From: a virus
DNA length: 30,542 nt
Reading direction: 5' to 3' (one strand)
Virus record (IMG/VR): IMGVR_UViG_3300048927_000085
Location: 1 to 30,542 of that record
The position numbers and the translations under genes were made by a program. The notes beneath the pieces are model-generated. The model worked only from the letters and a program-made list of their open reading frames with translations, did not search any database and was not told the DNA's origin. Below, piece after piece: positions 2,797 to 22,692 of this stretch (positions are counted from its first letter, which is position 1; each line of letters opens with the position of its first letter).

Positions 2797-3036
2797 TTAA
2801 CCGCGAGCCTCGCGACCGTCTTCGTCCTCATGTACACGGTATCGCCAGTATTTGTCTGGTTTGACCCAAACCACATCCTCACCACTATCAATCCGAAAGG
2901 TGTTTATGACCTTGGTTGATAGCGCTAAGTTTCCATCTGCGTTTTCTTTTAGATGTTGCTCGTTGTTTTCCTTAACGAGGTGGTCGACGACCTCTTGCTG
3001 ATAAAGACAGCCTTCCTTCGACAAAACCGACATCAT
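2797..3036 (-). CDS. DUF6953-like small protein, start codon unclear
   Basis: From ATG 3036 the protein has 79 residues. It includes the pattern GNLALSTKVINTFRIDSG followed by VVWVKPDKYWRYR, which I associate with the DUF6953 family of small phage and host proteins of unknown function. The frame stays open upstream and reads SVADVSTW just before the first Met, a segment family members normally keep at their N-terminus. No ATG, GTG or TTG exists upstream, and ATG 3036 has only a poor ribosome binding site. The frame could begin at ATA 3084, inside ATAA, where the YodC-like gene stops. The gene may be shortened, weakly expressed or dead. Confidence 0.6.
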   Translation of the reverse strand: MMSVLSKEGCLYQQEVVDHLVKENNEQHLKENADGNLALSTKVINTFRIDSGEDVVWVKPDKYWRYRVHEDEDGREARG

Positions 3037-3080
3037 CCACGTTGAAACATCAGCGACTGATAGCGCAGGTGCGTTTGGGC

Positions 3081-3290
3081 TTATGGCTTTGGGTTAGTTG
3101 ATGTCAATGACTCTTCGGCAAACCGTCCTTTTTCTAACTTTTTACCTGCAAACCATTGACAGTTATATTCACCTGTAAAGGCTCCGCCCCATTCAATTAA
3201 TTCGTGAACAGACATTTCAGGTCCGCCGGACTTTAAATAAACAGAATCACCTAGTTTGAACTTAGGTGAGTTCGCTGCTGATTTACTCAT
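3081..3290 (-). CDS. YodC-like protein (DUF2158)
   Basis: This is a 69-residue soluble protein. The core FKLGDSVYLKSGGPEMSV followed by CQWFAGKKLEKGRF and EESL is the signature of the YodC/DUF2158 family: a small beta-barrel-like protein, function unknown, common in enterobacterial phages. An insert of about 12 residues (HELIEWGGAFTGEYN) separates the two halves. AAGGAA, 8 bases before ATG 3290, is a good ribosome binding site. It is first in a two-gene minus-strand unit facing away from terminase. No strong promoter was identified in the 25-base gap or the start of terS. Confidence 0.8.
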   Translation of the reverse strand: MSKSAANSPKFKLGDSVYLKSGGPEMSVHELIEWGGAFTGEYNCQWFAGKKLEKGRFAEESLTSTNPKP

Positions 3291-3315
3291 TGTAATTTCC
3301 TTATTGGGTTAACAC

Positions 3316-3888
3316 ATGGCACTCAACACAAAACAGGATATGTTTTGTCGCGAGTACCTCATCGATTTAAACGCCACGCAAGCGGCTATTCGGGCGGGGT
3401 ACAGCGTCAAAACTGCAAACCGCATTGCCGCTCAGCTATTGTCAAAACTTGACATCCAGAACAGGATCGCCGCGCTCAAGAGTAAGCGAAACGAGGATGT
3501 AGGTATTGATGCAGATTATGTATTGCGGCGCTTGGTAGAAATCGACCAGATGGACGTTCTCGACATCTTGAAAGACGACGGAACCTTAAAGCCCATATCA
3601 CAGTGGCCTAAGGTGTGGCGCATCACCCTTCAGGGGATGGATATCTCAACGACCATTCAGGACTTTGACGAAAAGACCACAGAAACGATCCTCAAAAAGA
3701 TTAAGTGGCCTGACAAGGTGAAGAACCTCGAACTGCTCGGCAAGCATGTGCGTGTGCAGGCGTTCAAAGAGCAGGTCGAGCAGAAGGTCACCGCAACCCA
3801 CAGCATTATGCCGGTCCCATCCTGCGATAACGTCGACGACTGGGAAGCGGCAGCGCACAAGCAGCAGAGCGAGGTTCTTGGTGGATGA
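3316..3888 (+). CDS. terS: Terminase small subunit (Terminase_2 family)
   Basis: This is a 190-residue DNA-recognition subunit of the packaging motor. The N-terminal helix-turn-helix domain reads KQDMFCREYLIDLNATQAAI and RAGYSVKTANRIAAQLL, the classic Terminase_2 pattern, through about residue 60. The rest is helical and probably forms the oligomer. It starts the packaging and head block, overlapping terL by ATGA at 3885-3888. No cos or pac site could be recognised in or near it. Confidence 0.88.
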   Translation: MALNTKQDMFCREYLIDLNATQAAIRAGYSVKTANRIAAQLLSKLDIQNRIAALKSKRNEDVGIDADYVLRRLVEIDQMDVLDILKDDGTLKPISQWPKVWRITLQGMDISTTIQDFDEKTTETILKKIKWPDKVKNLELLGKHVRVQAFKEQVEQKVTATHSIMPVPSCDNVDDWEAAAHKQQSEVLGG

Positions 3889-13562: not shown

Positions 13563-13867
13563 GGCAGGTCGCCGCAGCGATGTATACACCGGGACCGACG
13601 CTCGCGGAGTTAGCCGCTTTTGGTTTAACGCCTGAGGACGTGGAGGAAGAGGTGGGGATCCTGCCATCCATATGGGAGGCCTTTACCGTCTTCTCCACGC
13701 TGGCGACCCAATGGCGCGTCGGCGCGAGCGGTGCGACCGGTCTTGATTACAACGTTCTCCCCTGGGTGTTTCAGTTGCACGGGGTTGAGGATGCGGCGGC
13801 CTGCATGGCTGATATTCGAATCATGGAAAGCGAGGCTCTCAAAGTGATGCATAAGGAGACGGCCTGA
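13224..13867 (+). CDS. GT: Tail assembly chaperone G-T fusion made by -1 frameshift
   Basis: The slippery heptamer A AAA AAC occupies 13553-13559, with AAA and AAC as the zero-frame codons, and TGA follows at 13560-13562. After a -1 slip the next codons start at 13559 and read LRQVAAAMYTPG. They run into the downstream frame without a stop and give a fusion of about 214 residues. In lambda the GT product links G shells to the tail tube protein and is required at low ratio. The frame relation (-1) and the heptamer are visible directly. Efficiency is unknown. Confidence 0.82.
13580..13867 (+). CDS. T: T-domain reading frame (DUF1799), expressed mainly by frameshift
   Basis: This 95-codon frame includes TLAELAAFGLTPEDVEEEVG and LDYNVLPWVFQLHGVED, the DUF1799 signature of the T part of tail assembly chaperones. 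There is an ATG at 13580 but no convincing ribosome binding site close to it, so the product is probably the C-terminal part of the fusion rather than a free protein. The stop overlaps the tape measure start. Confidence 0.72.
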   Translation: MYTPGPTLAELAAFGLTPEDVEEEVGILPSIWEAFTVFSTLATQWRVGASGATGLDYNVLPWVFQLHGVEDAAACMADIRIMESEALKVMHKETA

Positions 13868-16800
13868 TGAGTGACCAAATCGCTTCGATCACATTGCGTG
13901 CTGACGTATCCGATCTGAAAACGGCCAGCAATGAACTGGATAAACTCGGTGAAGCCGCGGCGGGAGCCGTAGGTAAAGCCGATGACCTTAACAGCGTATT
14001 CCGCGCTGGCGCTGAGTCTGCGAAGCAGGGCAGCGAAGGCCTCAAAGAGCAGCAGACCGCGCTTAAAGGCCTGCTGGAGAACATCGACCCGGTCACCAAG
14101 GCACTGAACCGACTGGATGAACAGCAGGCTGCGCTGCGTAATTTCCAGACTAAGGGCTTTCTGGATACCGATACATTCCAGGCCTATAACAAGATCCTGG
14201 ATGACACCCGACTAAAGCTGACAGATACCGGCGAGGCAGCAGCGCGGGCCCAGGCCGAACTGGCCGCCACCCAGGCTGCCGAAAAGCAATCTGCCGCACT
14301 GAAGAACCTGCTGGGCTCCATCGACCCCACGATCCGCGCGTTCAATTCGCTGGATGAACAGCACGCGCAGCTGGTGGCGCACTTCGAATCAGGACGCATC
14401 AACAGCGCGCAGTTTGATCACTTCAACACCATCCTCAACCAGACGCGTGAGCGGCTCTCTGGCGTGGCTGACGTGCTGCCTGAGGCATTATCTCGTCAGG
14501 AGGCGGCGGCCCGTCGTGCGGGGATCTCCGTGGGCCAGTACAGCGCGGCCATGCGCACGCTGCCGGCTCAGTTCACCGACATCGCCACGCAGCTGGCTGG
14601 TGGGCAGTCTCCGTTCCTGATCCTGCTCCAGCAGGGCGGGCAGATTAAAGACCAGTTTGGCGGCGTCCAGGGGGCGCTGACGGGCGTAGGTGAATACATC
14701 CGCAGCATGGCCGGGATGATTAACCCAACCACGATTGCCCTAGGCGGTCTGGTAGGAATCATCGGCCTGCTGGCTGCAGCCGCGTACAGTTCGTCTGAAC
14801 AGTTCGATCAAGTGGCACGGTCTGTCATCATGATGGGCGGTGCTGGTTTCGCCTCAATGCAGCAGCTCAACCAGGCCGCTGAAGAGGTGGCGGGCAAGAC
14901 GAACACCTCGGTCAGCTCGACGGTCGATACCCTAGTTGCGCTGAATGACACTGGCAAATATACCGTCAGCCAGATGAAGCAGATCGCCACGTCCATCACC
15001 CTGATGGGCAAGGCAGGCAACGATACCAAAACGGCGATGGCCGACTTTGGCAAGATTGTCAGCGACCCGGTGAAAGGGCTGGCCAGCCTGAATGAGCAAT
15101 ATGGCTTTGTCGACGAAGCTATGATGAAGCACATCATCCAGCTGCGTAAGCAAAAGGGTGAAGAGGCTGCGGTGGCTGATGCCATCCAGCTGTATGCCGA
15201 TGTCATGACTAAACGCGCCGAGGAAACCATTAAAGCGACCGACAATATCAACAAAGTGTGGGAAACCCTTAAGAAGAGTGCTTCTGACAACTTCAGTGAT
15301 ATTGGCATTACTGTCCGCGCCTGGGGAAATCAGGTGATCGATATTTTCGATCTGGTTAGAGCCTCGATTAAGGACCTGTTCCTCAATATCACCTCACTGG
15401 ATGCCAAGTTCACTGGGACCATTGCCGGGTGGGCTGAAAAAATACCCGGTGGTGGCGCAGTAACGGAGTTCCTCGGCATGGATGTCGAGGCCATGAAAAA
15501 GGCCGGGGCTGAAGCTGACAAAGAGATCGCGGCGAATAAAAAGCGTTACGACGAACTATGGAAGCGCGTTACTGCCCCCAATGCACAGGCAAGCTATGAA
15601 GCCGAAGCGCGAGGTGTAAACGTTAAAGGAGAGGGTGGATCGAGCCGAGCATTGAGGGATGCGGTATCGAAACTTGCTGAGGACTCTTCCAAAAAGACCC
15701 GAGAAGCAAAGGCCACGCTGGATGCTGGCGATCGCACCCTGGAAAACTACCGCGCCCAGGCCAGAACCTTAACGGAGACCCTGGAAACTCTGCGGCAGAC
15801 CGGTGAAACCCACGCCAAAAATACCGAGTTCAGTAAACAGCAATCCCGCTTTGCTGAGCTGGACGAGGCCGCCAAAAGTCGCGCTCTTACCGCGCAGGAG
15901 AAGTCCCTCCTGTCGAGCCGCGAGGCCATTCTGAACGCCGCTAAGGTGGTGGATCAGAAGAACAAGGAAGTAGAGGCCCAGCAGAAGATTAACGGCCTGG
16001 CACAGCAGGCTAATAAGTACGTCACCCAGATGTCCGAGAAGTCAGAGGCTCTAAGGAGCGGGTCTGGCTTGAGTAGCCGCATGGCCCAGCGAATGACCGA
16101 GGAGGCGCAGTTACGACAGGGGTGGCTGAACGGCGGCGGAAAACTGGAAGACACAGGCTATGAGAAAGAGCTAGCAGCGCTTCGGAATTATTATGCTGAG
16201 GAAGATAAGCTGCGCGGCGACTGGAAGGCTGGCGCATTAAGCGGCTGGAATGAATATCTTGAGGCAGCAACTGACACCTATAGTGCGGTGAAGAACGTTG
16301 CTGGATCTGCGCTCACCGGACTATCCGACATGCTTACCGATCTCATGACGACCGGCAAGGCGTCCATTAAGGCATTCGGTATGTCGATGCTGAAGATGAT
16401 CGCTGAAGTCGTAAACCGTTTGATGGTGGCTTATGCAGTTCAGGCGGCGATGGGGTGGATAAGTGGTGGTTCAGCGTCCTCAGCTGGGGGCGGACAGTCA
16501 TTTGCCGTTCCGTCGTATGCCCCAAATGCTAAAGGCGGTGTGTATGAGTCGTCGGGCCTCAGTAAATATGTGAATGGAGTCTACGACACCCCTCAGTACT
16601 TCGCGTTCCAAGGTGCATCCAAGTTTGCCAAGGGCGGTGTATTTGGCGAGGCGGGGCCTGAGGCGATTATGCCTTTGACGCGCGACTCAGCTGGCCGCTT
16701 GGGTGTCAGGGCGCAGGGTGGGAACGGGGGGCAGTCGCAGGTAAATATTGATATCTACGTCGACAACAAGGGCAATACATCATCAAATACTTCTGGAGAT

Positions 16801-16914
16801 GGTAATGCCGCTGCCAGGGCTTTAGGAAAGGAAATCGAAGCCAAGGTGACTGAGATCCTGGCGAGAGCCGCCCGAAGCGATGGATTACTTGGCAGGCAGT
16901 TCCAGACAAAGTAA
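13867..16914 (+). CDS. H: Tape measure protein, lambda H-like
   Basis: This is a 1015-residue protein that sets tail length and is ejected with the DNA. Residues 1-190 are helical with a duplicated pattern (DPVTKALNRLDEQQAALRNF versus DPTIRAFNSLDEQHAQLVAH). The TMP_2-type domain at about 210-320 includes AARRAGISVGQYSAAMRTLP and a hydrophobic stretch, ALGGLVGIIGLLAAAAY. Long coiled coil follows to about 800. The C-terminus has a hydrophobic helix and KGGVFGEAGPEAIMPLTRD, conserved in lambda H-like proteins. At about 1.5 angstroms per residue the tail would be near 150 nm. AAGGAG lies 8 bases before ATG 13867. Confidence 0.92.
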   Translation: MSDQIASITLRADVSDLKTASNELDKLGEAAAGAVGKADDLNSVFRAGAESAKQGSEGLKEQQTALKGLLENIDPVTKALNRLDEQQAALRNFQTKGFLDTDTFQAYNKILDDTRLKLTDTGEAAARAQAELAATQAAEKQSAALKNLLGSIDPTIRAFNSLDEQHAQLVAHFESGRINSAQFDHFNTILNQTRERLSGVADVLPEALSRQEAAARRAGISVGQYSAAMRTLPAQFTDIATQLAGGQSPFLILLQQGGQIKDQFGGVQGALTGVGEYIRSMAGMINPTTIALGGLVGIIGLLAAAAYSSSEQFDQVARSVIMMGGAGFASMQQLNQAAEEVAGKTNTSVSSTVDTLVALNDTGKYTVSQMKQIATSITLMGKAGNDTKTAMADFGKIVSDPVKGLASLNEQYGFVDEAMMKHIIQLRKQKGEEAAVADAIQLYADVMTKRAEETIKATDNINKVWETLKKSASDNFSDIGITVRAWGNQVIDIFDLVRASIKDLFLNITSLDAKFTGTIAGWAEKIPGGGAVTEFLGMDVEAMKKAGAEADKEIAANKKRYDELWKRVTAPNAQASYEAEARGVNVKGEGGSSRALRDAVSKLAEDSSKKTREAKATLDAGDRTLENYRAQARTLTETLETLRQTGETHAKNTEFSKQQSRFAELDEAAKSRALTAQEKSLLSSREAILNAAKVVDQKNKEVEAQQKINGLAQQANKYVTQMSEKSEALRSGSGLSSRMAQRMTEEAQLRQGWLNGGGKLEDTGYEKELAALRNYYAEEDKLRGDWKAGALSGWNEYLEAATDTYSAVKNVAGSALTGLSDMLTDLMTTGKASIKAFGMSMLKMIAEVVNRLMVAYAVQAAMGWISGGSASSAGGGQSFAVPSYAPNAKGGVYESSGLSKYVNGVYDTPQYFAFQGASKFAKGGVFGEAGPEAIMPLTRDSAGRLGVRAQGGNGGQSQVNIDIYVDNKGNTSSNTSGDGNAAARALGKEIEAKVTEILARAARSDGLLGRQFQTK

Positions 16915-17758: not shown

Positions 17759-18181
17759 CTATTTTTTGTTATTTTCGTTAGATGCATCAGCCCACAAAGC
17801 TGATTTAAATTTAAGCATTGATTGGAATCTGCTGGTATCTTCCCTGATTCGATCCATGAACTGTTCGACCAACCAATCAATTTTTTCGTTGTTTTTGTCA
17901 AAATCTTGGGGTGAAAGATTTTCAGGGTCAGAAGAGATTACCTCCCTATAAACCTTTTCAACGTCATCTAATTCGGAAATGGGATTAACGCGACTACCGT
18001 ATTTATGAATGACTTCTTCCAGTTTCTCGAGGCGTCCATCCAGTGCGTCCTGAAGTATCTGCACAATTTCTGAGTTCATAGATCTGCCGTTCTGCTTTGC
18101 TCGCTCAGCGATGGCATCCCGCATCCCGTCTGGGAATCGGAGCATAAACTTGTCGTAATCGCGGACCTGTTTCTCAGTCAT
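17759..18181 (-). CDS. Mnt-like ribbon-helix-helix repressor 1
   Basis: This is a 140-residue DNA-binding protein. Residues 9-47 are an Arc/Mnt domain: strand DKFMLRFP, helix DGMRDAIAERAKQNG, then GRSMNSEIVQILQDAL, nearly identical in pattern to P22 Mnt (NGRSMNSELLQIVQDAL). The C-terminal 90 residues are helical and acidic, longer than in Mnt, and could serve oligomerisation. GGAGG before ATG 18181 is a good ribosome binding site. It is divergent from the Arc-like and antirepressor genes, as mnt is in P22, so it probably keeps the antirepressor promoter silent in the lysogen. Confidence 0.85.
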   Translation of the reverse strand: MTEKQVRDYDKFMLRFPDGMRDAIAERAKQNGRSMNSEIVQILQDALDGRLEKLEEVIHKYGSRVNPISELDDVEKVYREVISSDPENLSPQDFDKNNEKIDWLVEQFMDRIREDTSRFQSMLKFKSALWADASNENNKK

Positions 18182-18200
18182 TAAGCCTCCACAGCAAAGA

Positions 18201-18240
18201 TATAAAGCTATAAAGCTATCAAGCTATAAAGCTATAAACC
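18201..18240. repeat. Five 8-base direct repeats in the leader of Mnt-like gene 1
   Basis: The units are TATAAAGC, TATAAAGC, TATCAAGC, TATAAAGC and TATAAACC, back to back, 20 bases before the Mnt-like start. From the predicted promoter at 18256-18283 they would lie in the 5' untranslated leader. They may arise by slippage and could tune expression; an operator role is also possible. Confidence 0.85.
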
Positions 18241-18255
18241 TAGGAACATAGGGCG

Positions 18256-18283
18256 ATACTATCACGTTGACATCATCAGTAAA
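18256..18283 (-). promoter_or_regulatory. Leftward promoter of Mnt-like gene 1
   Basis: On the minus strand TTTACT (18283-18278) and TAGTAT (18261-18256) are separated by 16 bases, and TGA precedes the -10 box (extended -10). Operator-like repeat 1 (18261-18275) fills the spacer. The same arrangement is seen at the second module, which supports the call. Confidence 0.5.
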
Positions 18284-18318
18284 TTGAGTCACAGTGATAT
18301 CATGTCACGGTGACATCA
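18261..18318. promoter_or_regulatory. Three operator-like 15-base repeats, module 1
   Basis: ATCACGTTGACATCA (18261-18275), GTCACAGTGATATCA (18288-18302) and GTCACGGTGACATCA (18304-18318) share the pattern RTCACNNTGAYATCA. Each has an inner dyad (TCAC/GTGA). Copy 1 lies in the leftward promoter spacer; copies 2 and 3 cover the rightward -10 box. Ribbon-helix-helix repressors bind such short half-site pairs, so these are likely targets of Mnt-like 1 and/or Arc-like 1. Confidence 0.72.
18295..18303 (+). promoter_or_regulatory. Rightward antirepressor promoter 1 (extended -10)
   Basis: TGA TATCAT forms an extended -10 element with a five-of-six -10 hexamer. No good -35 box lies 17 bases upstream. 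TTGACA at 18267-18272 is too far away for this -10 box. Transcription would start near 18310, inside operator copy 3, and read Arc-like 1 and antirepressor 1. Confidence 0.5.
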
Positions 18319-18334
18319 AAAAAAGGGGTTATCT

Positions 18335-18505
18335 ATGGATACATTTTACACGCAGCGCAAAACCCAGAGCTTTCAGCTTCGCCTTCCTGAAGATATGAAA
18401 GATCAGATCCGCAGGATGGCTGAGATGGATGGGATTTCGATTAACTCTGCGATTGTGCAGCGTTTAGCAAAAAGTCTGCGCGAGGATCGTGTCGGTGGGC
18501 AGTAA
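18335..18505 (+). CDS. Arc-like short ribbon-helix-helix repressor 1
   Basis: This is a 56-residue protein, the size of P22 Arc (53). Strand residues are SFQLRLP, followed by EDMKDQIRRMAEMDGISINS and AIVQRLAKSL, the Arc/Mnt fold. Ser/Asn at ISINSAI matches the conserved RSVNSEI turn. AAGGGG at 18323-18328 lies before ATG 18335. It is the first gene of the rightward unit. In P22, Arc represses both mnt and ant promoters late in infection, and the same role is likely here. Confidence 0.83.
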   Translation: MDTFYTQRKTQSFQLRLPEDMKDQIRRMAEMDGISINSAIVQRLAKSLREDRVGGQ

Positions 18506-18512
18506 AAACAGC

Positions 18513-18544
18513 GAAGCCCCAAAGGCGGCAACCTTCGAGGCTTC
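18513..18544 (+). ncRNA. Leader hairpin before antirepressor 1
   Basis: GAAGCC at 18513-18518 pairs with GGCTTC at 18539-18544, and AAGG at 18521-18524 pairs with CCTT at 18532-18535, with two mismatches between. It lies in the transcript between Arc-like 1 and the antirepressor start. A similar GAAGCC...GGCTTC hairpin lies at the same place in module 2, so it may control antirepressor translation. There is no T tail, so it is not an intrinsic terminator. Confidence 0.5.
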
Positions 18545-18575
18545 TAATTTGTCAGCAACTTATGAGAAACCAACT

Positions 18576-19397
18576 ATGAACAGTATAGCAACAGCAGTTT
18601 CGACCATCAACGTGCCTTTTCATGGCTCTGAGCTCTATGTCGTGAACCACAACGGCGAGCCGTTCACCCCGATGCGCCCAATTATTGATGGCATGGGAAT
18701 GGACTGGGCATCGCAGTTCACGAAGCTCAAATCCCGCTTTGCTAAAGGGGTTGTGGAAATCACAATCCCTACCGCTGGGGGCGTTCAGAAGATGCTTTGT
18801 CTCGCGCTCCGCAAACTTGCCGCTTGGCTGAATACCATCAGCCCGAACAAGGTAAAACTGGAGATCCGTGATCGCGTGATCCGCTACCAGGAGGAGTGCG
18901 ATGATGTTCTTTTCGAATACTGGACGAAAGGGCAGGTAACCAATCCGCGTAAAGCGACAAACTCAAAAAACAAGACAACCTCTGACGATCGCACGCCATT
19001 AAGAGATGCGGTCAATATGCTAGTGAGTAAAAAGCACCTGCTTTACCCGGAGGCTTACGCAATGATCCACCAATACTTCAAAGTGGACAGCATCGAAGAC
19101 CTGGCGATGGAGCAGTTACCTCTGGCAGTGGAATATGTCCACAAATTGGCATTGGAAGGAGAGTTGCTGCCGCGTGAGCCGATACTCACCCCAGTTCCAG
19201 TAATAACTCCGCCGCGCAGTCCAAATCGCGTCCTGCTTTATCTAGATGAATTTGGTGCCGTCCAGAGCAGCATGCCATTACAGGATGATCAGGTAGTGAT
19301 GAGCATCAACGGCTTCTTTGATTTTGCTAAAAGCAGAGGAATGGTGGTTATGCATCGCGACGAACTAACCAACCGGCTAGCGGGGTTGCTGGCCTGA
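18576..19397 (+). CDS. ant: P22 Ant-like antirepressor 1 (P22_AR_N)
   Basis: This is a 273-residue protein that should bind and inactivate a CI-type prophage repressor. Residues 1-115 match the P22 Ant N-terminal domain (MNSIATA start; PMRPIIDGMGMDWASQFTKL; KLAAWLNTISPNKVK; VIRYQEECDDVLFEYWTKG). The middle, TPLRDAVNMLVSKKHLLYPE, also follows Ant. Residues 218-273 form a separate domain (RVLLYLDEFGAVQSSMPLQD) that recurs in antirepressor 2. The start at 18576 fits P22 Ant. The frame is open back to a GTG at 18489 inside Arc-like 1, so a longer coupled form is possible; the ribosome binding site at 18576 is weak. Confidence 0.88.
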   Translation: MNSIATAVSTINVPFHGSELYVVNHNGEPFTPMRPIIDGMGMDWASQFTKLKSRFAKGVVEITIPTAGGVQKMLCLALRKLAAWLNTISPNKVKLEIRDRVIRYQEECDDVLFEYWTKGQVTNPRKATNSKNKTTSDDRTPLRDAVNMLVSKKHLLYPEAYAMIHQYFKVDSIEDLAMEQLPLAVEYVHKLALEGELLPREPILTPVPVITPPRSPNRVLLYLDEFGAVQSSMPLQDDQVVMSINGFFDFAKSRGMVVMHRDELTNRLAGLLA

Positions 19398-19419
19398 CAA
19401 TCTATCTCAACCGAACTCG

Positions 19420-19443
19420 GCCTCGCTAACGCGGGGCTTTTTT
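19420..19443 (+). terminator. Terminator of module 1
   Basis: GCCTCGC at 19420-19426 and GCGGGGC at 19431-19437 pair around TAAC, followed by TTTTTT at 19438-19443. It ends the rightward Arc-like/antirepressor unit. Confidence 0.85.
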
Positions 19444-19520
19444 GTCGCCCAACGCCTTATGATCAAATGGGCGGACTGATCACTTGCATCGAGGCAAAGT
19501 AGCAACCTTGCAGTTAACTG

Positions 19521-19997
19521 TTATTTAATAAGCATGGCCAAACCAGCAGTCGTTGCTGTTTGAACTACAGTTTTTAGGGCATCTGTTGAGAGTTCGCCTA
19601 AAACTGATTTCGCTTTTTCCTTGTCTGTATCGTTTAGATTAGATAAGGCAATAAGGTCTTCCAGCACTATGACAGCGTCACGGTGGAACTTGATAGTAGT
19701 TATATTGAGGATGGCCGAAAGACCGCCATCCTGTTGCATAAAATCAATGCCTGTAGCGGTTGCCTTTACAAAATAAAATTCAGGCATTTTCAGGCGGCGA
19801 TACCCGTTTTCATCAAAATGTATTAATTTATGCTCGTGCAAATAATATATATTAACAAGTAAAAAATCGGTTTCTGCACTTTTTATCAGTACATATTTAT
19901 CAGGTATTGTAGAATGTCTATGGCCAATTTGAGCTGGATAAGTATCAATAGCTAAAGATAATATTTCCCTTTGCAAATCACGGTTAAATTTACTCAT
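19521..19997 (-). CDS. 158-residue protein of unknown function downstream of Mnt-like repressor 2
   Basis: I do not recognise this protein with confidence. The first 90 residues could be a winged helix: helix NRDLQREILSLAIDTYPAQI, then FLLVNIYYLHEHKLIHF, a beta wing, and FVKATATGIDFMQQDGG. The remainder is helical, with DAVIVLEDLIALSNLNDTD, a charged stretch, and a mildly hydrophobic C-terminal segment (TTAGLAML). It has no signal peptide. AGGATAAGGA just before ATG 19997 is a strong ribosome binding site. It lies 59 bases behind Mnt-like 2 on the same strand and is markedly AT-rich, both signs of lysogenic cargo from another source. A defence or exclusion role is a hypothesis. Confidence 0.7.
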   Translation of the reverse strand: MSKFNRDLQREILSLAIDTYPAQIGHRHSTIPDKYVLIKSAETDFLLVNIYYLHEHKLIHFDENGYRRLKMPEFYFVKATATGIDFMQQDGGLSAILNITTIKFHRDAVIVLEDLIALSNLNDTDKEKAKSVLGELSTDALKTVVQTATTAGLAMLIK

Positions 19998-20056
19998 TCC
20001 TTATCCTTGTTCTTATTTTGGTGAAAAGGTTTCATTCCTAACAAGTGCTTTAGGTT

Positions 20057-20509
20057 TTAGAGCGATTTTTTAACTTCATTTTCGGGTATGTCAACCAGAA
20101 AACCACTGCCGTCTATGGACTTTTCTGGAACGATGTAGCCTAGTTCATCAAGTTTTTTTAATGTTCTATCAAGCACATGATAAAAATCATCTTCACTTAT
20201 CTCATCTAGTTCAAGATCGTTGAAACTTATGCAAAAATTTCTATGTCCCATGCGGGCTTTTTCATTTATTTCAGCAAATGTTCTTTTGAAAATTATATTG
20301 GATATTTCATCTTTTGCGATGCTTGCTATTTGAAGCGCTTGGCTTGCTGAAATGACCTCGTCTTCAGGAATTTCACCTAAGAAGCTTGCCTCTAGTCGCT
20401 TAACTATTTCAGCATTCATTGAGCGACCATTTGCTTTAGAAAAATCTTCAATCTTTTGTTTTAGTTCAGCGGGAAGTCTAATTCTAAGTTGAGGGTCTTC
20501 TCTGCTCAT
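20057..20509 (-). CDS. Mnt-like ribbon-helix-helix repressor 2
   Basis: This is a 150-residue protein. Residues 2-42 form an Arc/Mnt domain: REDPQLRIRLPAELKQKIED, then FSKANGRSMNAEIVKRLEAS. The C-terminal 105 residues are acidic and unlike the tail of Mnt-like 1 (FCISFNDLELDEISEDDFYH, then LDELGYIVPEKSIDGSGFLV). ATG 20509 is chosen over GTG 20518 because GGAG at 20521-20518 is its ribosome binding site and overlaps the GTG. It is divergent from Arc-like 2 and probably represses the second antirepressor promoter. Confidence 0.84.
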   Translation of the reverse strand: MSREDPQLRIRLPAELKQKIEDFSKANGRSMNAEIVKRLEASFLGEIPEDEVISASQALQIASIAKDEISNIIFKRTFAEINEKARMGHRNFCISFNDLELDEISEDDFYHVLDRTLKKLDELGYIVPEKSIDGSGFLVDIPENEVKKSL

Positions 20510-20546
20510 GTCGGTCACTCCATCTAGAAATATTCACAATATGTAA

Positions 20547-20575
20547 ATTATGCCCCACGGTGGGGTTGACAGCAA
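20547..20575 (-). promoter_or_regulatory. Leftward promoter of Mnt-like gene 2
   Basis: On the minus strand TTGCTG (20575-20570) and CATAAT (20552-20547) are separated by exactly 17 bases. The spacer contains the whole first operator palindrome (20553-20565). Its -35 box overlaps the -35 box of the rightward promoter by two bases. Confidence 0.6.
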
Positions 20576-20616
20576 TGACGCACGGTGTGACACTTTGCAT
20601 ATGCCCCACGGTGGGG
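20553..20616. promoter_or_regulatory. Operator palindromes, module 2
   Basis: The 13-base palindrome CCCCAC G GTGGGG is present twice, at 20553-20565 and 20604-20616, without a mismatch. A degenerate copy keeping CACGGTG lies between them at 20581-20587. Centres are at 20559, 20584 and 20610, about 25 bases apart. The copies cover the leftward spacer, the rightward spacer and the rightward start region, as expected for sites of Mnt-like 2 and Arc-like 2. They share no sequence beyond CACGGTG with the module 1 repeats. Confidence 0.82.
20566..20594 (+). promoter_or_regulatory. Rightward antirepressor promoter 2
   Basis: TTGACA at 20566-20571 is a perfect -35 box. After 17 bases, GACACT at 20589-20594 is a weak -10 box (three of six) preceded by TGT (extended -10 form). 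Transcription would start near 20601, next to the third operator. Confidence 0.5.
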
Positions 20617-20632
20617 CGTATGGAGGTTATCT

Positions 20633-20800
20633 GTGGAAAAAGCAAAAGACATGTATCAGCGTAAGGTTCGCTTTCCAGAGGACGTGCGTAAGGCGATCGA
20701 GAAGAATGGGGAAGACGAATGCCGGCAGTTTAATACTGAGCTGATTTATCAGCTGAGAAAGGTTTACGGATTGGCAGGTGAGAAAAGTGCTCAAGCATAA
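20633..20800 (+). CDS. Arc-like short ribbon-helix-helix repressor 2
   Basis: This 55-residue protein starts at GTG 20633, seven bases after a strong GGAGG. It reads YQRKVRFPEDVRKAIEKNGE, then QFNTELIYQLRKVYGL: strand, helix and helix of the Arc fold. The loop GEDECRQFNTEL keeps the Asn of the RSVNSEI turn but is otherwise divergent. It is the first gene of the rightward unit of module 2 and probably limits antirepressor 2 synthesis. Confidence 0.78.
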   Translation: MEKAKDMYQRKVRFPEDVRKAIEKNGEDECRQFNTELIYQLRKVYGLAGEKSAQA

Positions 20801-20807
20801 AAACATT

Positions 20808-20839
20808 GAAGCCCTGACTGCGCTAACAGTCAGGGCTTC
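20808..20839 (+). ncRNA. Perfect leader hairpin before antirepressor 2
   Basis: GAAGCCCTGACTG at 20808-20820 and CAGTCAGGGCTTC at 20827-20839 form an uninterrupted 13-base-pair stem with loop CGCTAA. It starts 8 bases after the Arc-like 2 stop and ends 35 bases before the antirepressor start. There is no T tail. It could protect or pause the transcript, or gate translation of the antirepressor. Confidence 0.65.
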
Positions 20840-20873
20840 GGTATCGAACAGATCCGGCAAAGGAAATATCGAC

Positions 20874-21434
20874 ATGAACAGTGTACAGAACAACGAATTA
20901 ACTTTCCATACAACAGCATTTCATCCTGTTGAGCATGATGGTGCGCTATGGCTGACATCTTCTGAGTTAGCCGCAGCACTGGGATACAAAAAGTCTGATG
21001 CCGTCACGCAGATTTATAGCCGGTACCATGATGAATTTACCGAAAGTATGTCAACGACCCTCAAAATGAGTGTCGTTAGAAAAACAGGAGTAGTTGAGAT
21101 CCCTGTGCGTGTTTTCTCGCTTCGCGGAGCACATCTTGTAGGCATGTTTGCCTCCACCCCTATGGCTAAAGATTTTCGCCGTTGGGTGTTAGATCTCCTG
21201 GATTGTGAAGTTCATAAGGACTCACAAATTAGCGCAATGCCTGAGTTTCATCAGCGTGTGATGCTGTATATGGATGAACGTGGCCGCGTGATCAGTTCAA
21301 TGCCATTGCCACAAGGAGTTGTTGCAATGACCTTCGAGGGATTTTTAGGACTGGCCCGGCAGAAGGGCTGGATCGTGGCCAGAGAGCAGGAGGTAGCCAA
21401 GAGTTTAATGAGTGTTTTACAGGGCTTGCATTAG
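20874..21434 (+). CDS. BRO-N type antirepressor 2
   Basis: This is a 186-residue protein. Residues about 8-115 form a BRO-N domain: FHTTAFHPVEHDGALWLTSS, then ELAAALGYKKSDAVTQIYSR, VFSLRGAHLVGMFASTPMAK and FRRWVLDLLD. Residues 128-186 (RVMLYMDERGRVISSMPLPQ and onward) repeat the C-terminal domain of antirepressor 1. ATG 20874, with AGGA at 20861-20864, is chosen. An open frame reaches back to GTG 20778 through the leader hairpin. BRO-N proteins of prophages act as antirepressors or regulators, and the Mnt/Arc context supports that here. Confidence 0.83.
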   Translation: MNSVQNNELTFHTTAFHPVEHDGALWLTSSELAAALGYKKSDAVTQIYSRYHDEFTESMSTTLKMSVVRKTGVVEIPVRVFSLRGAHLVGMFASTPMAKDFRRWVLDLLDCEVHKDSQISAMPEFHQRVMLYMDERGRVISSMPLPQGVVAMTFEGFLGLARQKGWIVAREQEVAKSLMSVLQGLH

Positions 21435-21447
21435 TGCAAAAAGAAAA

Positions 21448-21469
21448 ACCGCCAGCTGCAACTGGCGGT
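21448..21469 (+). ncRNA. Hairpin before antirepressor 3
   Basis: ACCGCCAG at 21448-21455 and CTGGCGGT at 21462-21469 form an 8-base-pair stem with loop CTGCAA and no T tail. It lies between antirepressors 2 and 3, 33 bases before the next start, and parallels the hairpins before the other two antirepressors. Confidence 0.5.
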
Positions 21470-21501
21470 CCACTGAAGTCTAATTACGTATAGGAGCGTA
21501 T

Positions 21502-22275
21502 ATGACTGGATTAAATTTAGCAGTTCAGGAACGTAATGTCGATCCCCAGACCTTTCCGGTAATTGAATGGGCTGGTCTGCGAGTCGTTACTACTGAGGCA
21601 CTGGCTTCGGGCTATGGTTGCGAAGAGAAAAATATTCGCATGAATCTTTCGCGAAACTTAGAGCGCTTTGAAGAGGGAAAGCACTACTTCATGGTGACTG
21701 GTGCGGATCTCAAAAATCTGCGGGCCACTGTCAGTGGCTCACAAATCTCCACTAAAGTACGCACTCTAACTTTATGGACGGAGAAAGGCGCGGCACGTAT
21801 GTCCAAGATTGTCGACACTGACGAGGCTTGGTCTTTCTTCGAGCGCTTAGAGGATTCGTATTTCCGACCCGCACCAGTTTCAGCGATCCCGCTTACCTAT
21901 GAAGCTGCTCTGGAGGACCTTCTGGCGAAAGTGAAAGAGAACCGCATCATTGCTGAACAGCGTGATCGTGCCGTCAAAGAGAAGCGCTGGATCTCTGAGA
22001 AGCGTGAAGTCACTGCAATGGCAACAGCCTCTGCCGCTGTTCGCGCCAAAAACAAACTGGCGGAGCGTCTTGGGGAGAGCAAAAGCTATGCTGCCATCAT
22101 CCCTGTGGAGAAGAAGCTTGGCCAGAAATTCAAATGGCAGCCGCTGCGCAAATGGTGCAAAGAGAATGACGCTGAACCGCATGAAGTTGAAGATCCGCGT
22201 TTTGGCACTGTGAAGTCTTGGCCTCGTGCCGCGTGGATTGCAGTATATGGCGTAGACCTCCGCAAGCTGTTCTAA
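21502..22275 (+). CDS. ORF6N-domain antirepressor 3
   Basis: This is a 257-residue protein. Residues about 17-120 match the ORF6N domain: FPVIEWAGLRVVTTEALASG, then NLERFEEGKHYFMVTGADLK and LWTEKGAARMSKIVDTDEAW. Residues 130-190 are a charged helix. The C-terminal 65 residues (IIPVEKKLGQKFKWQPLRKW onward) are a second small domain common in phage antirepressor proteins. AGGAG at 21492-21496 is a good ribosome binding site. It has no repressor genes of its own and is probably transcribed from antirepressor promoter 2. Confidence 0.82.
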   Translation: MTGLNLAVQERNVDPQTFPVIEWAGLRVVTTEALASGYGCEEKNIRMNLSRNLERFEEGKHYFMVTGADLKNLRATVSGSQISTKVRTLTLWTEKGAARMSKIVDTDEAWSFFERLEDSYFRPAPVSAIPLTYEAALEDLLAKVKENRIIAEQRDRAVKEKRWISEKREVTAMATASAAVRAKNKLAERLGESKSYAAIIPVEKKLGQKFKWQPLRKWCKENDAEPHEVEDPRFGTVKSWPRAAWIAVYGVDLRKLF

Positions 22276-22341: not shown

Positions 22342-22692
22342 ATGGCAGTTGAAACCTACAACTGGCGTTCGCAGCTCGGTGCCGGGCCTGTCGAGTATGG
22401 TCAGACGGTGCGATCGGCTCAGTTTGGCGATGGTTATGAACAGGTGGCCGAGAACGGCATCAACTCCACGGCCATTCAGGTGCCGATGAAGCACACTGGG
22501 ACTGAGGCGGAAGTAAACGCGATCCGCGACTTCCTGCTGGCCCATACCGTTAAGGCCTTCATTATCACACCACCCGGCGAGGTGAAGGGGCTGTACCGTG
22601 TTGTCGTTAACTCCGTGCGTAAAAACCAACTGAACAGCAAATTCTCTGAGTTGACCTTCACCATCAAACGGGCCTACGGGGTATACGCATAA
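22342..22692 (+). CDS. M: Tail tip protein M
   Basis: This 116-residue protein is the first of the lambda tail-tip set. TYNWRSQLGAG at the start, RSAQFGDGYEQVAENGINST, and FSELTFTIKRAYGVYA at the end follow the lambda M / phage minor tail protein family. It forms the ring joining tube and tip. GGAG at 22333-22336 precedes ATG 22342. The stop overlaps the start of L (22692). Confidence 0.9.
   Translation: MAVETYNWRSQLGAGPVEYGQTVRSAQFGDGYEQVAENGINSTAIQVPMKHTGTEAEVNAIRDFLLAHTVKAFIITPPGEVKGLYRVVVNSVRKNQLNSKFSELTFTIKRAYGVYA

Follow-up and report, generated by a model that had tools for sequence, protein, structure and literature searches.

The Mnt and Arc proteins of phage P22 are the classic model of DNA reading by a small repressor, and are known mainly from one operator pair and from laboratory mutants. 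In P22, Mnt acts as the repressor of Pant and Arc as a repressor of both promoters, and Ant inactivates the prophage repressor. The contact assignments available for Mnt concern Arg2 and His6, with Arg2 contacting the central base pairs. Control of the ant gene has been attributed to mnt, arc and sar together (PMC11016777), and the immI gene order inserted in a late operon has been described as an 'ant moron' (PMC2629481). The half-site of the Mnt operator, read from the centre outwards, has been measured as GTGGACC (PMC2726951). Site positions below are counted from the first base of the rightward TTGACA of each locus; in the P22 record, Omnt (GGTCCAC-G-GTGGACC) is located at +43 on this scale, relative to the TTGACA of Pant.

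The immI-type module and its surroundings

The window, meaning the whole stretch of DNA analysed, is a complete IMG/VR record of 30.5 kb (30,542 nucleotides) with genes for the head and tail of a tailed phage. The tape measure gene (13867-16914) and a minor tail gene (22342-22692) enclose two antirepressor modules. As judged from its genes, module 2 is a P22 immI-type antirepressor module, comprising mnt-like, arc-like, sar and antirepressor components. The Mnt-like 2 repressor (20057-20509, minus strand; Pfam Arc, 46.3 bits; phrog_1388, 2e-59) is a protein of 150 residues which begins MSREDPQLRIRLP, with Mnt (1mnt) as its top PDB sequence match and an N-terminal part that matches Arc/CopG/AmrZ. 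When aligned on the proline of RxP, its recognition residues at positions 2, 6, 8 and 10 are R2/Q6/R8/R10, which are invariant among 19 aligned relatives. The C-terminus of P22 Mnt is simply short, whereas residues 55-150 of Mnt-like 2 form an alpha-beta domain, predicted fairly confidently, for which (window 20057-20345, minus strand; phrog_1388) no clear structural match was found. The divergent arc-like 2 gene (20633-20800, plus strand) also encodes an Arc/Mnt-type RHH protein (Pfam Arc, 20.7 bits against a cut-off of 20.4), beginning VEKAKDMYQRKVRFP and carrying K2/Q6/K8/R10; it has a GTG start, with GGAGG at 20622-20626. A sar antisense RNA (20804-20872, minus strand; Rfam RF00262, 58.1 bits against a gathering score of 43) is located between arc-like 2 and the ant genes, which encode a Bro-N antirepressor (20874-21434, plus strand; PF02498, 4e-7; phrog_5060 anti-repressor Ant, 1e-30) and, as the last gene of the module, an ORF6N-domain antirepressor-type protein (21502-22275, plus strand; PF10543, 1.5e-18; phrog_4936).

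Module 2 and P22 immI share gene order and orientation, the sar RNA, an operator over the ant transcript start, a site in the Pant spacer and insertion in a late operon. The place of module 2 is different, however, being among the tail genes that follow the tape measure gene, and its Bro-N and ORF6N antirepressors are unlike that of P22 immI; the P22_AR_N-type antirepressor of this virus sits in module 1 instead. The presence of two modules, as in window 17759-22275, was seen in none of 36 related records sampled, some of which may be fragments; since these records show one module each, the pairing looks unusual. Between the two modules lies a phrog_3983 gene of no known function (19521-19997, minus strand).

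Three palindromes within divergent promoters

A first-pass annotation of this DNA had described evenly spaced palindromes within overlapping promoters, and the coordinates of palindromes and hexamers bear this out. Two identical perfect 13-nt palindromes with an odd centre, CCCCACGGTGGGG, occupy 20553-20565 (centre 20559) and 20604-20616 (centre 20610), and a degenerate central copy, TGACGCAC-G-GTGTGACA, is centred at 20584, giving spacings of 25 and 26. The predicted left operator (CCCCAC-G-GTGGGG, 20553-20565) belongs to the leftward mnt-like 2 promoter, whose 17-bp spacer starts with this palindrome and is bounded on the minus strand by the predicted -35 TTGCTG (20575-20570) and -10 CATAAT (20552-20547). 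The next base after the palindrome, 20566, begins the predicted -35 of the rightward, Pant-like promoter (TTGACA, 20566-20571, plus strand), a hexamer found as TTGACA or TTGACT in 42/42 dereplicated relatives. At a 17-bp spacing follows a weak predicted -10, GACACT (20589-20594, plus strand; 3/6 to consensus), with GACACT, GACAAT and GGCAAT as its variants in relatives. Here the overlap of the two promoters is between their -35 elements, in contrast to P22, where one promoter is superimposed on the other. The predicted central operator (20576-20592) falls within the rightward spacer, at +18 between the -35 and the -10, and overlaps the latter. The predicted right operator (GCCCCAC-G-GTGGGGC, 20603-20617) is a perfect palindrome of 15 nt spanning the point at which transcription of arc-like 2 and the antirepressor genes is predicted to begin, the same place as Omnt in P22. 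Compared with P22 immI, module 2 has a third site, to the left of the ant -35.

Finding a lone odd palindrome of 13 nt in 30 kb is unremarkable, with 7 odd palindromes with arms of at least 6 observed in the window against about 7 expected. Two identical ones within the 114-bp intergenic region are a different matter, having appeared in 0/50,000 dinucleotide shuffles. Comparison with viral relatives (8 loci when the 150-residue protein was used alone as query, 4 in a single genome scan and 75 with Arc-like 2 as query) has shown that all three sites recur. Among 86 module-2-type loci, the left site lies at -7 in 85 and the central site at +18 in 85, and the right site lies at +42 to +45 (+44 in the window). 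The linker between the central and right sites varies in length and sequence, with 39 distinct versions among 42 dereplicated promoters; against linker DNA that is rarely the same in any two relatives, the sites show up as footprints. Conservation is highest at the central site, and the two outer sites vary independently of each other. In every half-site counted across these 42 promoters, base 5 is G. Escherichia phage TL-2011b has the same Mnt-like and Arc-like types and three sites at -7, +18 and +42, but its left site is degraded (CCTCAC-C-GTGTGC) and the N-terminus of its mnt-like gene is frameshifted. In this mnt-like gene (locus positions 3005-3470) the frameshift concerns a single base in the N-terminal recognition region, and close copies of the gene are intact in other loci.

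Taken together, these observations suggest, with a probability of about 0.85, that Mnt-like 2 uses the three palindromes as its operators, acting as the maintenance repressor of an immI-type module placed in a tail operon. We infer from the sequence that the array is the seat of binding, repression, autoregulation and insulation. The left site, within the mnt promoter spacer and abutting the ant -35, would provide both autoregulation and a block to RNA polymerase; the central site would occupy the spacer and -10 of the ant promoter and the right site would cover the transcript start. With these sites filled, arc-like 2 and the antirepressor genes would be silent in the lysogen, the sar RNA would add a second layer of silencing, and Arc-like 2 would hold expression down after the ant promoter has fired. 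Because mnt, arc and sar control ant in P22, keeping the antirepressor operon silent in lysogens is most likely the role of Mnt-like 2, by analogy.

The right palindrome could instead work at the RNA level, forming a hairpin near the start of the arc-like 2 mRNA. Its folding energy is -13.9 kcal/mol, and its variants are mostly C-to-T changes on the left arm, with which G-U pairs would persist. The identical left palindrome, however, lies upstream of both predicted start sites, and several right-arm variants break pairs, as expected if either half of a DNA site may vary, making the hairpin a very improbable explanation. The even spacing had also been taken to suggest cooperative binding on one DNA face, a reading that fares equally poorly. 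The distance between the left and right sites in the window, 51 bp or 4.86 turns, would suit it, but 25 and 26 bp correspond to 2.38 and 2.48 turns at 10.5 bp per turn, which places neighbouring sites 137 and 171 degrees apart. Among 48 unique sequences, the left-centre spacing is 25 in every case, a constancy that can be explained by the promoter elements between the sites, whereas the centre-right spacing is 26 in 25 cases, 24 in 17, 25 in three and 27 in three. Helical phasing is not conserved, given this drift between 24 and 27, and helically phased binding on a single face is accordingly most unlikely, although cooperativity may arise by other means.

Half-site specificity and the central site

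Read from the centre outwards, the half-sites are GTGGACC in P22, GTGGGGC in module 2 and GTGACAT in module 1. Module 2 shares with the P22 Mnt operator an odd-centred CCAC-N-GTGG core, a 7-base half-site and the distance from the -35, and differs from GTGGACC at bases 5 and 6 (GG vs AC). On this comparison the module 2 array represents a naturally occurring variant of the Mnt operator of P22, and the switch is of a known kind. The P22 half-site would have been re-specified, with Arg2 reading base 1 (G) and with Gln6 and Arg8 in place of His6 and Asn8, accompanied by the changes at outer bases 5 and 6.

The first-pass annotation had regarded the module 2 operator as different from that of module 1 and lacking wider similarity to it. 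The first part holds, with 4/7 half-site bases differing, at positions expected to set specificity. The second does not, since modules 1 and 2 and P22 are alike in GTG, in the odd centre and in position: a CAC-N-GTG core and a site at +42 to +45 are common to all three. In module 1 the predicted right operator, ATGTCAC-G-GTGACAT (18302-18316), is a perfect palindrome at +42. It is accompanied by a middle site, GAGTCAC-A-GTGATAT (18287-18301, centre 18294, +26), and a left site, CTATCAC-G-TTGACAT (18259-18273, centre 18266, -1), with halves CAC and TTG. For one virus to carry two modules with different half-sites, insulation would be required, which is plausible here from the sequences compared: Mnt-like 1 (R2/K6/M8/R10, GTGACAT) would be expected to bind module 2 poorly because both recognition residues and outer bases differ. 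The array suggests a way for two antirepressor switches to coexist in a single virus without crosstalk.

The central site raises the question of which repressor reads it. Its halves, GTGTGAC and GTGCGTC, share the GTG core and base 5 with the outer halves, and resemble the Mnt-like operator and not P22 Oarc, which is a distinct operator. Moreover, halves have been exchanged between sites in relatives: the right site ends in GTGTGAC in one locus (L036) and in GTGCGAC in two others (L250 and L252), and the central site of another (L230) carries an outer-type half. As halves swap between the central and right sites, one specificity probably reads all three, unlike the separate Oarc and Omnt of P22. 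A division of labour as in P22, with Mnt-like 2 on the outer palindromes and Arc-like 2 alone on the central one, is a less likely arrangement. The position of the central site (+18) is near that of the P22 Oarc centre (+15), its conservation exceeds that of the separately varying outer sites, and Arc-like 2 always accompanies this Mnt-like type. Nevertheless, the retained core and base 5 and the interchange of halves speak against it, as does the Lys2 of Arc-like 2, G at base 1 going with Arg2 in the Mnt-like proteins.

A further possibility, to be entertained tentatively, is that both repressors read the same class of half-site on a shared array, either competing or binding together. Their recognition strands are similar (R2/Q6/R8/R10 in Mnt-like 2 and K2/Q6/K8/R10 in Arc-like 2), and residues 6 and 8 match within modules above shuffled expectation (21 matches, p 1e-4, uncorrected for kinship). 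Such sharing may merely reflect recent duplication, however, and the Arc and Mnt operators of P22 are distinct.

Recognition residues and operator bases across relatives

The interest of the array lies in the residue-base series to which it belongs. The modules constitute a natural series in which recognition residues and operator bases change together, including near-single-residue contrasts, making contact assignments directly testable. At recognition positions 2, 6, 8 and 10, P22 Mnt carries R/H/N/R, Mnt-like 2 R/Q/R/R and Mnt-like 1 R/K/M/R. For a wider comparison, divergent Mnt-like/Arc-like pairs were collected and the best odd palindrome of each was picked without protein information. 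Among 30 dereplicated Mnt-like proteins, which are related sequences and hence not fully independent, a C-N-G centre (base 1 = G) was found in 11/16 Arg2 clusters and in 1/14 others (p 8e-4). A held-back set of 14 new N-terminal sequences from three further scans gave 2/2 for Arg2 and 0/12 for the others (p 0.011). The Arg2 label needs five changes on the tree, of which two or more are required by branches with good support. These data suggest that operator base 1 tends to be G where the repressor has Arg2.

Five of the 16 Arg2 clusters are exceptions under the blind rule: L073 and L098 (one GTG half kept), L116, which has weak palindromes only, and L274 and L276, which are Kapi1/ES2-type loci with GTT-type sites. 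ES2 and a related ST899 phage carry a GTATAAC-G-GTTATA-type palindrome, with a C-N-G centre. Closely matched contrasts include VRDYDKFMLRFP with GTGACAT against VAAQDKFMLRLP with [AT]TGACAT, and ARNIAPFGLRMP with GTGATAT against ASLIAPFGLRMP with ATGTAGT.

At position 8, Arg8 is invariant where the module 2 promoters all have G at base 5, and Mnt-like lineages with Met8 or Val8 have C at base 5. The latter agrees with the RHH protein AmrZ of Pseudomonas aeruginosa, in which Val20 packs on cytosines (PMC3325190). In the structure of AmrZ with DNA, K18/V20/R22 correspond to residues 6, 8 and 10, although AmrZ has GGC half-sites and is a host regulator outside phage modules. A strict rule linking residue 8 to base 5 is ruled out by SREYPQFKLRMP, which has Lys8 and occurs with GTGGTTT. 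A natural code (residue 2 to base 1, residue 8 to base 5), combined with a homotypic three-site array of one specificity that replaces the two operators of P22 and possibly serves both repressors, is put forward as a speculative proposal, more doubtful as a whole than the assignment of the operators to Mnt-like 2.

Additional features have been observed in module 1. Five tandem 8-bp units of the AAGCTATA type occur at 18197-18242, separating the start of Mnt-like 1 from the operators of module 1, and were not seen among the module 1 relatives examined. Further along, a sub-threshold sar RNA match (18510-18574, minus strand; 34.6 bits against a gathering score of 43) is present, with a terminator-like hairpin at 18544-18513.
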